DNA of 64,000 nucleotides from Ideonella aquatica (GTDB taxonomy: Bacteria > Pseudomonadota > Gammaproteobacteria > Burkholderiales > Burkholderiaceae_C), in the NCBI RefSeq assembly GCF_018069755.1, contig NZ_JAGQDE010000020.1, positions 1-64,000 of the forward strand. The letters are read 5' to 3'. Shown here one piece after another: positions 5,027-54,754 of this stretch. Made by a program: the position numbers and the translations under genes. Below the pieces are notes generated by a model that saw only the letters and a list, made by a program, of their open reading frames with translations, made no database searches and was not told where the DNA came from. How positions within the stretch are numbered: position 1 is the stretch's first letter; every line of letters starts with the position of its first letter.

Positions 5027-6187
<1,161 letters not shown>

Positions 6188-6229
6188 GGGAGGCTTGTCG
6201 TGGGTTCAGGACGAATGAGCAGGCGGAAA

Positions 6230-6246
6230 ATTTCGTATGACGAAAT
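6230..6246. promoter_or_regulatory. 17-bp palindrome upstream of sucC, candidate operator
   Basis: ATTTCGT-ATG-ACGAAAT: perfect 7-bp arms around a 3-nt centre, in an otherwise GC-rich leader 43 nt before the sucC start. Size and symmetry suit a dimeric regulator of the GntR or a similar helix-turn-helix family. No good -35/-10 pair was found next to it. The protein that binds it is unknown. Confidence 0.55.
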
Positions 6247-6420
6247 GCTGATGCACACTGCTCGCCGGCGCCGGATTGTGCGGCACTTTCCTGCCAATTG
6301 GCTGACGGACCGACCCGCGGGGCCGGCCTGCAGCTGCCCGGGAACAGGCAGGTTTCAGGGCGGTTTCAGACCGGCGGCGACTGTAGCACGCATGTTGCGA
6401 TGCAGCATCCTGCATGGTGA

Positions 6421-6439
6421 AACCCGGCGGGGCCGGGTT
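6421..6439 (-). terminator. Possible terminator at the recX stop codon
   Basis: AACCCGGC-GGG-GCCGGGTT is a perfect 8-bp stem whose right arm touches the recX stop codon. On the minus strand it is followed by TCACC rather than a long T run, so it would be a weak intrinsic terminator between recX and sucC. Confidence 0.5.
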
Positions 6440-6996
6440 CAGTCGTCGTCGCGGCCGCCGACAATGCGCCGGATCAGCGCCGGCGCAAAGCCCCGCGCGG
6501 CCAGAAAACGCATCTGGCGCGCGCGCTCGGCGGGGTCGGTGGCGGGTTCGCCAAAGCGCTTGCGCCAGACCGCGCGGGCGCGCTCGGCCTCGGAGTCTTT
6601 CAGCGCCTGCTGGGTGTCGGCATCGAGCTCGACACCATGGCGCGCCAGCTCCTGGCGGATGCGCGCCTGGCCCAGCTTGGGCGCGCGGGCGTGCACGCGC
6701 GACTCGATGAAGCGCGCGTCACTCTGGTGGCGGCGCTCGGCCAGCCAGTCGAGCACGGTGTCGACCTCGGCGGCCAGGGCTTCGGGGTCAGGTTCGGCGG
6801 CGGTGGCCGGCAAGGCGTCACCGTCGAAAAAGGCCTGCAGCGGATCGGCGGCGCCCCCCAACGGATCGGTGGCCGCCCACTGCGCACGCTTGCGCGCCTG
6901 GGTGATCAGGCGGCCGCGCAGCTCCTGCCGGCTGTACTCGCGCCGGGCCAGCAGCGACAGCGCATAGGCCTTCAGGCCCAGGGGCTCGCGGGCCAT
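6439..6996 (-). CDS. recX: Recombination regulator RecX
   Basis: 185 residues of three-helix RecX repeats, e.g. ALSLLARREYSRQELRGRL at the N-terminus, a middle repeat with RQELARHGVE, and RARQMRFLAARGF at the C-terminus. RecX binds RecA filaments and tunes their activity. It lies 21 nt downstream of recA on the same strand, the usual recA-recX operon, so it should be induced by DNA damage together with recA. There is an acidic DDD tail. Confidence 0.93.
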   Translation of the reverse strand: MAREPLGLKAYALSLLARREYSRQELRGRLITQARKRAQWAATDPLGGAADPLQAFFDGDALPATAAEPDPEALAAEVDTVLDWLAERRHQSDARFIESRVHARAPKLGQARIRQELARHGVELDADTQQALKDSEAERARAVWRKRFGEPATDPAERARQMRFLAARGFAPALIRRIVGGRDDD

Positions 6997-50946: not shown

Positions 50947-51804
50947 ATGTCGTTGCGCCTGCTTCTGCCCCTTGCCGCCCTGGCGCTGAGTGCCTGCAGC
51001 CTGATGCCCCAGGTCGCCCCGATCGCCGCGGCCCGCCCCGCCACGGGCGAGTTTGTGCGCGCCCTGACGCCGGACAACCGCCTGCTCGGCCTGGACGCCG
51101 CCGCGCCGCAGACCCTGGTCAGCCAGTGCGCGATCAGCGGCCTGAAGCCGGGCGAGCAGCTGCTGGGCATGGATTACCGCGTCGCCCGCGGCCAGCTCTA
51201 TGCGCTGGGCCGCAGCGGCCAGCTCTACACGATCGACACCGCCCAGTGCGCCGCCAGCCCGGTGGGCAGCGGCATCGGCTGGCCGCTGCTGGGCGCGCGC
51301 GTGGGCATCGACTTCAACCCCGTGGTCGACCGCCTGCGCGTGGTCACCGAAGCCGGCCAGAACCTGCGCGTGCACCCCGACACCGGCCGCGTGGTCGACG
51401 GTGCCCCCGACACGCTGCTGGGCTACGTCAACACCGACCGCCACGCCGGCCGCACGCTGCGCGTGGTGGCCGCCGGCTACACCTACAACCAGGACAACGA
51501 CAAGCTCACCACCAACTACGCGATCGATGTGGGCCTGGCGCAGCTGGTGATGATGGGCTCGCACGAGAGCAAGGTGCCGCCGGTCTCGCCCAACACCGGG
51601 CGGGTGATGAGCGTCGGCCCGCTGGGCGTGGACGGCCTGGTCGAGGCCGATCTGGACATCTCCGATGTGAAGAACCAGCCGCTGGCGATGCTGCGCACCG
51701 ACCAGAGCCGGCTGTACCGAGTTGACCTGACCACCGGCCGCGCCACGCTGATCGGCGCCATCGGCGACGGCGGGCCGATCCGCAGCATCGCGATCGAACC
51801 ATGA
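50947..51804 (+). CDS. DUF4394 lipoprotein
   Basis: 285 residues. A lipoprotein signal (lipobox LSAC, lipid cysteine at residue 17) is followed by a DUF4394 beta-propeller-like domain with repeated motifs: LLGMDYRVARGQLYALGRSG, VGIDFNPVVDRLRVVTEAGQ, LGYVNTDRHAG and RLYRVDLTTGRATLIGAI. Probably anchored on the periplasmic side of a membrane. CAAGGATCC precedes the ATG. Its stop overlaps the cupredoxin gene by 4 nt. Function of the domain is unknown. Confidence 0.85.
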   Translation: MSLRLLLPLAALALSACSLMPQVAPIAAARPATGEFVRALTPDNRLLGLDAAAPQTLVSQCAISGLKPGEQLLGMDYRVARGQLYALGRSGQLYTIDTAQCAASPVGSGIGWPLLGARVGIDFNPVVDRLRVVTEAGQNLRVHPDTGRVVDGAPDTLLGYVNTDRHAGRTLRVVAAGYTYNQDNDKLTTNYAIDVGLAQLVMMGSHESKVPPVSPNTGRVMSVGPLGVDGLVEADLDISDVKNQPLAMLRTDQSRLYRVDLTTGRATLIGAIGDGGPIRSIAIEP

Positions 51805-52403
51805 CCGGCCGCGCCACGCTGCTGCTGATCGCCGCCGCCGTCCTGGCGGACGCGGCGGCCGCGGCCAGCGTGCGTGTGACGGTGCTGAACCCGGCTGGCA
51901 ACCTGCTGTCCGACGCGGTGGTGATGCTCGAGCCCACCGGCGCGCGCGTGGCGCCCAAACCGCTGGCCAGCGCCGAGGTGGGCCAGCAGGACAAGCGCTT
52001 CCAGCCGCAGGTGGCGGTGGTGCCGGTGGGCACGCGGGTGGACTTTCCCAACCGCGACACGGTGCGCCACCATGTCTACTCGGTGTCCGAGGCCAAGCGC
52101 TTCGAGATCAAGCTCTATGTCGGCCGCCCCGAGAAGCCGGTGCTGTTCGACAAGCCCGGGGTGGTGGTGCTGGGCTGCAACATCCACGACAGCATGCTCG
52201 GCTGGATCGTCGTCGCCGACACGCCCTGGTACGGCCGCAGCGGCGCCGACGGCGTGGTGCAGCTGAGCGAGGTGCCGGCCGGCAGCTACCGGCTGCGCAC
52301 CTGGCACCCGGTGCTACCGGCCGGCGGCTTTGGCGTGGAGCAGGCCCTGGTCGTGGCGGGAGACGCCGAGGTCCTGGTGCGCCTGCCGGGAGCAGCGCGG
52401 TGA
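51801..52403 (+). CDS. Periplasmic amicyanin-like cupredoxin
   Basis: 200 residues. A signal peptide ends near residue 22 (AAA-SVRV). The type-1 copper ligands are recognisable: H90/H91 in VRHHVYS and the C-x2-H-x2-M loop C126-NI-H129-DS-M132, the short loop spacing of amicyanin; such proteins are often labelled methylamine-utilisation proteins. No methylamine dehydrogenase genes are here. The extra C-terminal part (about 150-200) has a carboxypeptidase-regulatory-like strand pattern (VPAGSYRLRTWHPVL). Overlaps both neighbours by 4 nt. Confidence 0.88.
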   Translation: MTGRATLLLIAAAVLADAAAAASVRVTVLNPAGNLLSDAVVMLEPTGARVAPKPLASAEVGQQDKRFQPQVAVVPVGTRVDFPNRDTVRHHVYSVSEAKRFEIKLYVGRPEKPVLFDKPGVVVLGCNIHDSMLGWIVVADTPWYGRSGADGVVQLSEVPAGSYRLRTWHPVLPAGGFGVEQALVVAGDAEVLVRLPGAAR

Positions 52404-54754
52404 AGTCGCGGCCCTTCTGGCGCAGCCTGGGTGGGCGCATCGTGATGGTCTTCGTCGCACTGCTGCTGGCGGTGCAGGGCGTGTCGCTGCTGCTGACGCG
52501 GCTGGGCATCGAGCGCAGCGCACGCGAGCAGATCGACGTGCGGCTCTCGCATGGCGAGGCCCTGCTGCGCGAGCAGCTCAGTCAGCGCGGCGAGCTGCTG
52601 CAGGCTGGCGCCGCCACGGTGGGCGCCGACTATGGGCTGCTGTCGACACTGCAGGGCGAGGTCGACGCAGACACCGTGCGCTCGACGCTGGAAGACAAGC
52701 TGGGCCGCCTGCGGCCGGCGCGCCTGGCCGCGGTGCTGGACCGCCAGGGCCGCCTGCTGGCGGCGGTGGGCCCGCAGGCCGCCGCGCTGGCCCAGCAAGC
52801 TGCCCGGCACGACGACGGCCGCTGGCAGGAAGCCCGCCTGGTGCGGCTGGGCGATCTGCCCTGCCAGGTGGTCAAGGTGCCGATCGGCCAGCGCGGCGAG
52901 GCGCCCAGCGGCTGGCTGCTGGCCGCCGTGCCGCTGGCCGACCTGCTGCCCGAGCTGGCCCGGCTGGCCCAGGCCGAGCTGAGCCTGATCGGCCCGCAGC
53001 AGGTGCTGGCCAGCACGCTCAGCCCGGCCCGCGGCACCGCCGCGCTGGCGCCGCTGCTGCAGGCCGGCCCGGCAGCGCAGGAGCTGACGCTGGCGGGCGA
53101 CGCCCTGGAGGTGCGCCGGGTCGAGCTGCCGGCGCTGGGCGAGGCGGGCGTGCCGCTGGTGCTGTCGCTGTCGATTGACGAAGCGGTACGCCCCTACGAA
53201 GGCCTGCAGGGCAGCCTGCTGCTGGTCAGCGGACTGGGCCTGGGCCTGTTCGCGCTGGGCAGCCTGCTCACCGCGCGCCGGCTGACCGCGCCGATGCAGG
53301 GCCTGGTCGATGCCACGCGCCGACTGGGCCGCGGCGACTACGCCACGCCCGTGGCCACCGTCGCCAGCCAGGACGAGATGGCCGAGCTGGCCCAGGCCTT
53401 CGAGGGCATGCGCCAGGGCATCGCCGAGCGCACCGAGCACATCCGCCAGCTGGCCTTCTGGGACACGCTGACCGGCCTGCCCAACCGCAGCCAGTTCGAG
53501 GACGAGGCCGCGCGCCTGGTCAGCGGCGAGGCGGGCGCAGCCCTGCTGATGCTCAACATCGACCGCCTGGAGCGCGTCAACCAGGTGCTGGGCCGCGCGG
53601 CCGGCGACCAGGTGCTGCGCCAGGTGGCCCAGCGCCTGCGCGCGCTGGCCCTGGACCTGCCCGAGCGCCAGCCGCTGGTGGCCCGCCTGGGCGGGGACGA
53701 GTTCGCGCTGCTGCTGCCCGGCGCCGACCTGGGCCGGGCGCGCGAGGTGGCGCGCCTGGTGCAGCGCCAGCTGACCGAGCAGGCGCTGGTGCTGGACGGC
53801 TCCACGGTGGACCTGTCGGCCGGCGTGGGCATCGCCGTGGCACCGCTGCACGCCAACGACACCGAAGCCCTGCTGGCCCGCGCCCTGCTGGCGCTGACCG
53901 AGTGCAAGCGCCGCACCGCCGGCATGCTGGCCTACGACCCGTCGATCGACGCCGGCAGCGCGCAGACGCTGTCGCTGCTGGGCGAGCTGCGCCAGGCCAT
54001 CCGCGGCCAGGAGCTGCGCCTGTACCTGCAGCCCAAGCTGCGCCTGGCCGATGACCAGGTGCTGGCCGCCGAGGCCCTGGTGCGCTGGCAGCATCCGCAA
54101 CGCGGCCTGGTGCCGCCGGTGCAGTTCATCCCCTTTGCCGAGGAAACCGGCTTCATCCACGAGCTGACGCTGTGGGTGGTCGACGAGGCCGCGCGCCAGG
54201 CCGCGCTGCTGCGCGCGCAGGGGCTGGCGCCGCGCATCTCGGTCAACCTGTCGGCCCATGACCTGATGAAGCCCGAGCTGCAGCAGCGCCTGCGCACCGC
54301 ACTGCAGCGCCACGGCGCCGAGCCCGGCTGGCTGTGCCTGGAGATCACCGAAAGCGCGATCGCCCACGACCCGCAGCGCGCGCTGCAGACCCTGCATGCG
54401 CTCAAGGCCGAGGGCTTTCGCCTGTCGATCGACGACTTCGGCGCCGGCCAGACCTCGCTGGCGCAGCTGATCGACCTGCCGGTGGATGAGCTCAAGCTGG
54501 ACATGCTGTTCGTGCGCACCATGGACCAGGATGCCGACAAGGCCTCGATGGTGGGCGCGCTGGTGCGCATGGGCCACGACCTGCGCCTGAGCGTGGTGGC
54601 CGAGGGCGTGGAGAACGCCGCCATCCTGCAGCGCCTGCGCGCGCTGGGCTGCGACGAGGCCCAGGGCTGGCACATCGGCAAGCCGATGCCGGCCGAGGAG
54701 CTGCCGTCCTGGCTGCAGGCGCGGGCGCTGCTGGCCTCAGTCCAGCGCGCCTGA
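52400..54754 (+). CDS. Membrane HAMP-GGDEF-EAL protein with altered cyclase site
   Basis: 784 residues. TM1 about 12-34, periplasmic domain about 35-270 (one cysteine, C155), TM2 about 271-291, HAMP about 290-345, GGDEF about 350-510, EAL about 520-775. GGDEF is intact at 431-435, but the usual D-x-D-x-F-K metal motif reads NIDRLERVNQ (386-395), so the first metal aspartate is asparagine, and no RxxD I-site is seen. The EAL domain keeps EAL (558-560), ITE, DDFGAG (678-683) and AEGVE. Hence probably a phosphodiesterase or c-di-GMP receptor with a GTP-sensing GGDEF. Third gene of the DUF4394-cupredoxin operon. Confidence 0.9.
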   Translation: MKSRPFWRSLGGRIVMVFVALLLAVQGVSLLLTRLGIERSAREQIDVRLSHGEALLREQLSQRGELLQAGAATVGADYGLLSTLQGEVDADTVRSTLEDKLGRLRPARLAAVLDRQGRLLAAVGPQAAALAQQAARHDDGRWQEARLVRLGDLPCQVVKVPIGQRGEAPSGWLLAAVPLADLLPELARLAQAELSLIGPQQVLASTLSPARGTAALAPLLQAGPAAQELTLAGDALEVRRVELPALGEAGVPLVLSLSIDEAVRPYEGLQGSLLLVSGLGLGLFALGSLLTARRLTAPMQGLVDATRRLGRGDYATPVATVASQDEMAELAQAFEGMRQGIAERTEHIRQLAFWDTLTGLPNRSQFEDEAARLVSGEAGAALLMLNIDRLERVNQVLGRAAGDQVLRQVAQRLRALALDLPERQPLVARLGGDEFALLLPGADLGRAREVARLVQRQLTEQALVLDGSTVDLSAGVGIAVAPLHANDTEALLARALLALTECKRRTAGMLAYDPSIDAGSAQTLSLLGELRQAIRGQELRLYLQPKLRLADDQVLAAEALVRWQHPQRGLVPPVQFIPFAEETGFIHELTLWVVDEAARQAALLRAQGLAPRISVNLSAHDLMKPELQQRLRTALQRHGAEPGWLCLEITESAIAHDPQRALQTLHALKAEGFRLSIDDFGAGQTSLAQLIDLPVDELKLDMLFVRTMDQDADKASMVGALVRMGHDLRLSVVAEGVENAAILQRLRALGCDEAQGWHIGKPMPAEELPSWLQARALLASVQRA

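Follow-up and report, generated by a model that had tools for sequence, protein, structure and literature searches.

For most GGDEF-EAL receptors we know of no input, and the locus described here raises the question whether a copper protein encoded directly upstream of such a receptor could be what it senses. The window, i.e., the whole stretch of 64,000 nucleotides of Ideonella aquatica DNA that was analyzed, carries on its forward (+) strand, at positions 50947–54754, a three-gene operon for a DUF4394 lipoprotein, a type-1 cupredoxin and a dCache-HAMP-GGDEF-EAL receptor. The parts of this system, their conservation, their linkage and co-occurrence and the swapping of receptor outputs were computed by comparative genomics, which names a candidate protein input together with its metal ligands and places the same kind of pair in front of several outputs. 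We consider it fairly probable that the operon serves periplasm-to-cytoplasm signaling, with the state of the cupredoxin being read by the dCache-HAMP receptor. Searches of the open-licence part of PMC returned no description of such a system.

The Operon and Its Exported Cupredoxin

The genes are joined by 4-nt overlaps, ATGA between genes 1 and 2 and GTGA between genes 2 and 3, exactly as in the initial annotation, the coordinates of which are likewise exact. Gene 1 (50947–51804, +; 285 aa) had been named a DUF4394 lipoprotein, and it matches PF14339 with 226 bits (cut-off 29.6), as the sole match in its own genome, while a lipobox (LSAC, with Cys17) can be read from its sequence. Gene 2 (51801–52403, +; 200 aa) has an export-type N-terminus and indeed carries the proposed amicyanin-type C-x2-H-x2-M loop, its copper ligands being His90 (52068–52070, +) and Cys126, His129 and Met132 in the motif CNIHDSM (52176–52196, +). 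All four ligands are invariant in 67/67 aligned cupredoxins, and the C-x2-H-x2-M spacing, which we take to be that of amicyanin, was found in all 168 cupredoxin places scoring ≥100 bits with the profile built here. Copper binding and redox activity of the protein are predictions.

The AlphaFold2 model of gene 2 (pLDDT 91.2) has a cupredoxin fold, for which the best Foldseek hits were amicyanin, the Nitrosopumilus purple cupredoxin (5fc9) and pseudoazurin, while a sequence-profile comparison with the PDB put two Cu nitrite reductases and the type-1 copper domain protein 5fc9 first, followed by amicyanin; the Pfam Cupredoxin_1 match lies below the cut-off. The description of gene 2 as a single-domain cupredoxin has to be revised, as matches to the Ig-like CarboxypepD_reg family, also below the cut-off, flank the cupredoxin core on both sides and the model has flanking strands at residues 22–45 and 144–194. 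The protein is therefore probably not single-domain, and it seems that an Ig-like (CarboxypepD_reg-like) domain is interrupted by the cupredoxin. No fusion of cupredoxin and receptor was seen among the called genes, the longest cupredoxin genes (376 and 347 aa) carrying N-terminal extensions.

Linkage and Co-occurrence of Cupredoxin and Receptor

The main cupredoxin tally is based on a six-frame search, because the gene caller missed some cupredoxin genes, while the position counts rest on gene calls. The gene at +1 encodes a dCache protein in 132/153 called neighborhoods, and none of 889 positions four to nine genes away is occupied by one; the profiles behind these linkage counts had been trained in part on these very loci. 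Same-strand next genes follow the cupredoxin at ≤50 nt in 117/129 cases. Of 397 Pseudomonadota genomes, 57 have the receptor domain and 56 of these encode the cupredoxin as well (Fisher p 3e-54, kinship ignored), and 55 of 65 receptor places in these Pseudomonadota genomes are ≤3 kb from it. A gene arrangement of this kind is far above chance by both the position counts and the genome co-occurrence.

Exceptions to the pairing count against the preferred explanation set out below. At 18/168 cupredoxin places no dCache receptor was found within 1.6 kb, and these 18 include one with a dCache gene 2.1 kb away, one with an EAL domain nearby, one at a contig edge and one with an ECF/RskA pair. Six genomes have the receptor at a site apart, with none of their cupredoxins linked to it. 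In one genome (G471) only the receptor passes the threshold, and in 13 genomes only the cupredoxin does.

The initial annotation had left it to be checked whether the linkage extends outside the genus, and it does: records with beta-, gamma- and alphaproteobacterial titles show it, as do one Desulfobacterales MAG and one Acidobacteriota MAG, which rules out a genus-specific oddity. Together, the conserved linkage and the co-occurrence bear out the partnership of cupredoxin and receptor that had been proposed. Related genomes share ancestry, so that the counts are not independent, and one could ask whether chance or an inherited gene order without functional meaning is enough to explain them. 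Besides being contradicted by the position counts and the co-occurrence, this has to contend with a link that spans classes, persists in convergent and divergent strand arrangements and on plasmids, and outlasts swaps of the output, and we give it practically no credence.

Whether the cupredoxin follows the dCache domain in particular is less clear-cut. Across 85 pairs, cupredoxin distances correlate better with those of the dCache domain (Spearman 0.56) than with those of the GGDEF (0.43) or EAL domain (0.36) of the same receptor, but in a control of 58 loci the correlation with an accessory globin (0.52) nearly equals that with dCache (0.55), and much of the specificity of this mirror-tree comparison is lost in the globin control.

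The Receptor and Its Exchangeable Outputs

Gene 3 (52400–54754, +; 784 aa, GTG start) had been taken for a membrane c-di-GMP protein with a periplasmic domain, and this stands, as HAMP, GGDEF and EAL all score over the Pfam cut-offs and the model has a periplasmic dCache fold, i.e., a double PAS-like domain between two transmembrane segments, followed by HAMP. The dCache profile match covers 52505–53218 (+), and Pfam dCache_3 was over the cut-off in a relative (L047), without a report for the window receptor itself. The best crystallographic match of the model is the periplasmic domain of LuxQ (3c38; Foldseek TM 0.67 by target, 0.45 by query). In the EAL domain (53984–54685, +), all eight catalytic residues that were checked are intact; across the family, the set is complete in 122/125 receptors, and the other three are gapped without substitution. 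The GGDEF motif is intact in the window receptor and exact in 39/125 family receptors, while an RxxD I-site occurs in 14/125 and is absent from the window receptor as read from its sequence. The output here would be a c-di-GMP phosphodiesterase, with the GGDEF domain as its likely regulator.

Receptors adjoining the cupredoxin mostly end in GGDEF-EAL, yet others carry a class III cyclase, a histidine kinase or a Ser/Thr kinase (Pfam Guanylate_cyc, HisKA/HATPase_c or Pkinase, respectively), and once (locus L133) an ECF sigma/RskA pair replaces the receptor. At least eight output changes were counted on the cupredoxin tree. A dCache profile made from EAL receptors only still scores 136–230 bits with the cyclase and histidine kinase receptors, whereas Ser/Thr kinase receptors reach only 31–46 bits. 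This is the pattern to be expected of a constant input in the periplasm combined with interchangeable outputs, and the swaps suggest that the input lies with the periplasmic pair.

According to the preferred explanation, the exported type-1 copper protein would be a dedicated partner of the dCache-HAMP receptor, and the state of its copper site (oxidized, reduced or empty) would be read by the dCache domain. The signal would then pass through HAMP to control how active the cytoplasmic output is, in this case the phosphodiesterase with GGDEF as likely regulator, while a periplasmic pair of this kind may drive a class III cyclase, a histidine kinase or a Ser/Thr kinase in other lineages. Physical contact, the direction of signaling and copper redox state or occupancy as the signal are what we infer. 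Counting against this mechanism, type-1 copper sites usually serve electron transfer, and small molecules are the usual ligands of dCache domains.

Accessory Proteins and Competing Explanations

The lipoprotein had been suggested as a scaffold or ligand binder; a role as general scaffold is not borne out, as DUF4394 lies within 3 kb of the cupredoxin in 2/25 places and their co-occurrence is not significant (p = 0.09). It was dropped as a core partner and is a minority accessory of the system; ECF sigma genes neighbor DUF4394 in 9 of the 19 loci read. The usual accessories are DUF3034 and an exported truncated globin, found together in 90/168 loci, with DUF3034 alone in one locus and the globin alone in another. 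DUF3034 (91 loci), BARREL6 (27) and BARREL29 (5) are three barrel-like families, one of which lies ≤4.5 kb away in 123/168 loci; we read their sequences as those of putative outer-membrane barrels. These accessories, or DUF4394 here, probably feed or modulate the cupredoxin, and the analysis offers leads on two uncharacterized families, DUF3034 and DUF4394.

The accessories are tied to the cupredoxin as well (it is present in 44/45 DUF3034 genomes, and 39/46 DUF3034 places are ≤3 kb from it), and many of the receptor's Foldseek matches are small-molecule chemoreceptors. Both points would suit a shared pathway without contact, in which dCache senses a small molecule that concerns a periplasmic machinery made up of cupredoxin, barrel-like protein and globin, and the genes are kept together by one process. 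Since the cupredoxin is constant while accessories and outputs vary, and the receptor domain lacks a cupredoxin in only 1/57 genomes, we regard this as unlikely.

In sequence, the globin resembles HbN most closely (E 6e-13), keeps the His aligned to HbN His81 in 79/79 cases and has two Cys conserved in 99%; 65/84 globins have an export-type N-terminus, compared with 724/2331 genes overall in this crude test with its high background. Given these features and the frequent pairing with DUF3034, the exported globin may bind O2 or NO and trade electrons with the cupredoxin, the copper redox state of which would be read by the receptor. Such a relay refines the preferred explanation rather than fully rivaling it, and we regard it as rather unlikely: no globin was found within 4.5 kb in the window operon or in 77/168 loci, and upstream boxes for FNR (1/154 vs. 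16/1220 controls) and NsrR (5/154 vs. 20/1220) are not clearly enriched. Neither are FliA boxes (7/154 vs. 21/1220), and a sigma-70 scan gave no promoter-like site.

The barrel-like proteins might instead be channels for copper or another metal, with the cupredoxin as their acceptor in the periplasm and its loading as the state that is signaled. The frequency of these families near the cupredoxin speaks for such copper uptake or homeostasis, but their outer-membrane identity is our own reading, CueR-like boxes are not enriched upstream (1/154 vs. 5/1220) and, by eye, no copper-resistance gene stood out next to the window operon, which makes this explanation distinctly improbable.

Returning to the reading of cupredoxin state by the receptor, the pairing points to an unstudied route by which outside copper or redox conditions are reported to the cell interior. 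In its boldest form, which we offer as possible but doubtful, this would be a widespread, undescribed signaling class with an exported blue-copper protein as fixed input, the copper redox state of which is set by the globin (O2/NO) in many lineages, and with a dCache receptor that passes it on as c-di-GMP, cyclic nucleotide, phosphorelay or Ser/Thr kinase signals.

Comparison With Known Systems

Amicyanin and pseudoazurin share the cupredoxin fold with gene 2, which differs in its extra Ig-like segments and its receptor linkage. A role as the amicyanin of a methylamine pathway was rejected, if on weak grounds, as the methylamine dehydrogenase families PF06433 and PF02975 had no match in the genome, in keeping with the initial annotation, and the controls were equally silent, which leaves the absence unproven. 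Plasmid relatives of the cupredoxin are annotated "methylamine utilization protein"; if the signaling reading is true, such genes need new names, and blue-copper proteins would be sensors besides electron carriers. The accessory globin of the relatives matches the group-1 truncated hemoglobin HbN but differs from it by its mostly export-type N-terminus, its two conserved Cys and its being encoded with DUF3034 and the cupredoxin, and it is absent from the window operon. ECF sigma/RskA modules, which adjoin the cupredoxin in L133 and of which at least the ECF is found near DUF4394, are not part of the window operon either.

Copper-linked sensing joined to GGDEF-EAL is described for the MHYT family, with the MHYT-GGDEF-EAL proteins MucR and NbdA and the MHYT regulator CoxC, in which copper is needed for CO sensing (PMC11347149), but MHYT is a transmembrane domain within the same protein, whereas the present system has its copper site in an exported cupredoxin separate from the receptor. 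A metal-regulated Cupriavidus phosphodiesterase was rejected as an already described case, the main text of its report containing neither "methylamine" nor "cupredoxin" (PMC6629876). The closest parallel is LuxP-LuxQ, where LuxP, a soluble AI-2 binding protein of the periplasm, is read by the dCache-type receptor kinase LuxQ, much as a soluble periplasmic protein is proposed here as the input of a dCache-type receptor. The partner in the present system is a cupredoxin by model and Foldseek instead of having the periplasmic-binding-protein fold of LuxP, the outputs are mostly EAL, and contact between the two proteins is, in our case, a prediction.

Composition of the Operon

The operon encodes a DUF4394 lipoprotein of 285 aa (50947-51804), an exported cupredoxin of 200 aa (51801-52403) and a HAMP-GGDEF-EAL membrane protein of 784 aa with a GTG start (52400-54754), as the initial annotation had placed them, and the overlaps reported there are exact, the sequence at the two junctions being ATGA and GTGA. 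Because the upstream same-strand neighbor stops 101 nt short of the lipoprotein gene, and the gene downstream of the membrane protein is convergent with an 18 nt overlap, the operon probably consists of these three genes only.

AlphaFold2 models the cupredoxin with confidence (pLDDT 91.2, pTM 0.86), and Foldseek matches this model to amicyanin, Nitrosopumilus purple cupredoxin and pseudoazurin, while the top sequence-profile matches are two copper nitrite reductases and a type-1 copper domain protein, followed by amicyanin. The ligands H90, C126, H129 and M132 are unchanged in 67/67 aligned relatives. The earlier description of the protein as single-domain is probably wrong, as the segments on either side show a sub-cut-off match to a carboxypeptidase-regulatory Ig-like domain, so that the cupredoxin seems to sit as an insert within that domain. 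Relatives in plasmid records are labeled "methylamine utilization protein"; in one locus (L142), a weaker cupredoxin relative adjoins a gene resembling a c-type-heme peroxidase (MauG-like), and such a neighborhood is possibly the source of the name.

The N-terminal part of the membrane protein, hereafter the receptor, adopts a dCache fold in the predicted model (pLDDT 90.2, pTM 0.79). Its best crystallographic Foldseek match is the periplasmic domain of LuxQ (3c38; E 3e-8, TM 0.67 by target and 0.45 by query), outranked by three integrative models of other receptors, and the LuxP-LuxQ complex (2hj9) is also among the matches. Pfam reports no dCache_3 in the window receptor and places it above cut-off in a relative (L047). 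All eight EAL catalytic residues are present in 122 of 125 EAL receptors, the remaining three being gapped with no substitution, whereas the GGDEF motif is exact in 39/125 and the RxxD I-site occurs in 14/125; the window receptor, as read from its sequence, keeps both the EAL and GGDEF motifs and lacks the I-site. Since the EAL residues are intact and the GGDEF motif and I-site often are not, the conserved activity is most likely c-di-GMP hydrolysis. In L127, the receptor and DUF3034 genes seem broken across frames, perhaps through sequencing error or decay.

Linkage of Cupredoxin and Receptor

At least 180 cupredoxin relatives were confirmed in a contig survey, of which the best 80 were kept (L033-L112). 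A class sample of 369 genomes, of which 84 were matched at E 1e-3, gave 103 listed places, 60 of which were taken by reading-frame length and E-value; a phylum sample of 397 Pseudomonadota genomes, of which 69 were matched at E 1e-15, gave 76, of which 60 were added, the remainder being 10 already taken, the window and 5 weak ones. In a six-frame search, 168 places reached at least 100 bits on our own cupredoxin profile (the best 80 contig loci, 29 from the class, 58 from the phylum and the window), and C-x2-H-x2-M is present in 168/168, a constancy that is partly a matter of selection, the profile having been trained on such proteins.

A dCache receptor lies within 1.6 kb of 150/168 places (75/80 contig, 25/29 class, 49/58 phylum and the window), and in gene-called neighborhoods the dCache gene is at position +1 in 132/153 and -1 in 7/152, at other positions within three genes in 4/579 and four to nine genes off in 0/889; the receptor profile behind these counts was partly trained on receptors of these very loci, and kinship among the genomes means that they are not independent samples. 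Same-strand next genes are at most 50 nt away in 117/129 cases, with 67/129 overlapping or touching. According to record titles, the relation reaches across beta-, gamma- and alphaproteobacteria and includes one Desulfobacterales MAG and one Acidobacteriota MAG.

In the reciprocal direction, a profile of the receptor's periplasmic domain alone (A4) matched 57 of the 397 phylum-sample genomes at E 1e-20, and 56 of those 57 hold the cupredoxin (Fisher p 3e-54, kinship ignored). A cupredoxin lies within 3 kb of 55/65 receptor places. Counted from the cupredoxin side (76 places), a receptor lies within 3 kb of 53, is confined to another part of the genome for 10 (three of the genomes concerned hold a further, linked copy) and is lacking at the A4 threshold for 13, one in each of 13 genomes; the latter include weak cupredoxins, two loci with Ser/Thr kinase (STK) receptors (G119 and G367), an ECF locus (G107) and G583, which nevertheless has a visible receptor. 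The ten unlinked receptor places comprise one with DUF3034 and globin (L264), three GGDEF-only proteins (L260-L262) and six beside other genes. Genes named from sequence as TonB-receptor-like and PKHD-type-hydroxylase-like adjoin the cupredoxin of L124, which is unlinked, as well as the receptor of L263, from the single genome lacking a cupredoxin; judging by gene lengths only, L187 and L190 may share these neighbors.

Exchange of the Output Domain

Pfam was run on fourteen receptors of unusual kind. Guanylate_cyc was found in five (L116, L119, L126, L049, and L189), HisKA with HATPase_c in L122 and L050 (the latter on the opposite strand and with a receiver), Pkinase in L134, L135, L141, and L137, PAS-GGDEF-EAL in L165, and PAS-HisKA-HATPase-receiver in L226 and L227. 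dCache_3 is above cut-off in 8/14, a Cache family is below cut-off in L122, L141, and L165, and none is reported in L126, L226, and L227; HAMP is above cut-off in 10, just below in L122, L137, and L226, and absent in L227. Against a dCache profile whose training set comprised EAL receptors only, the cyclase and histidine kinase (L122, L050) receptors score 136-230 bits and the STK receptors only 31-46 bits, which makes the STK group the least sure sharer of the input domain.

A quick cupredoxin tree (n = 135; 60/132 inner branches weak) requires at least eight changes of output; the STK loci form nearly one group, and histidine kinase locus L050 is sister to EAL locus L052 (SH-aLRT 97). The cupredoxin thus retains one receptor kind across changing outputs, a pattern that fits a dedicated input. 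In L165, where a weaker cupredoxin relative (5897-6610; 56 bits) stands beside the PAS-GGDEF-EAL receptor, the ligand-loop His is seemingly lost, while a relative in L160 retains it, and this distant cupredoxin is possibly a copper-free partner. In L133 (4452-8015), whose genome belongs to the window's family, the genes after DUF3034, globin and cupredoxin encode an ECF sigma factor and an anti-sigma factor of RskA type, with no dCache receptor near the cupredoxin.

Accessory Genes

Accessory genes were tallied up to 4.5 kb from each of the 168 places: DUF3034 with globin occurs at 90, BARREL6 at 27, DUF4394 at 12, BARREL29 at 5, globin alone at 1, DUF3034 alone at 1 and none at 32, with two kinds at no place, although short contigs may hide some. 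The identities of DUF3034 and Bac_globin are each borne out by Pfam in two loci, and NCBI annotation of a Caballeronia plasmid gives the order DUF3034, group 1 truncated hemoglobin, methylamine utilization protein, EAL. BARREL6 and BARREL29, named as barrels from sequence, gave no Pfam match with one protein of each. The globin is nearest to HbN; the His aligned to HbN residue 81, which we take to be the proximal ligand, is kept in 79/79, and two Cys, kept in 99% of 79 globins of DUF3034 loci, possibly form a disulfide.

DUF4394 is found in 23/397 genomes, within 3 kb of a cupredoxin in only 2/25 places, and its co-occurrence is not significant in this sample. An ECF sigma gene lies within two genes of DUF4394 in 9 of 19 other loci read (phylum-sample DUF4394 loci such as L234-L242; four left out), accompanied in 8 of 9 by an RskA-type gene (own profile or Pfam), which offers a lead on its function. 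The DUF4394-cupredoxin-EAL trio also occurs next to pilV on a plasmid of Comamonas aquatica (L253; NZ_CP104280.1, 44347-48301) and in Marinomonas, suggesting that it travels between lineages.

Proposed Mechanism and Comparison With Known Systems

Computation establishes the components, the copper ligands, the linkage, the co-occurrence and the exchange of outputs, and from there we infer the signal, a contact between cupredoxin and receptor and signaling from the former to the latter; the best model would be a LuxP-LuxQ-like arrangement, the copper protein standing where LuxP does. To our knowledge, the type-1 copper site of known proteins has no free coordination place, so that redox state or copper loading would be a likelier signal than ligand binding, and the presence of globin in 91/168 loci suggests that O2 or NO may set the copper redox state there. 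Cupredoxin distances correlate best with those of dCache (0.56, against 0.43 for GGDEF and 0.36 for EAL; 85 pairs). However, over 58 loci globin (0.52) comes near dCache (0.55), followed by DUF3034 (0.44) and EAL (0.41), so that this correlation is weak evidence and the globin value counts against the model, as do the 18/168 places without a dCache receptor within 1.6 kb, where the accessories are DUF3034 with globin (7), BARREL6 (7), DUF4394 (1) or none (3).

Open-licence PMC literature, judged mostly on title and start of abstract, yielded no description of a cupredoxin-receptor system. The available part of one article lists globins and GGDEF/EAL genes without a link between them (PMC3770913). 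The nearest copper precedent is MHYT, which differs in architecture from the cupredoxin-receptor pair (PMC11347149).
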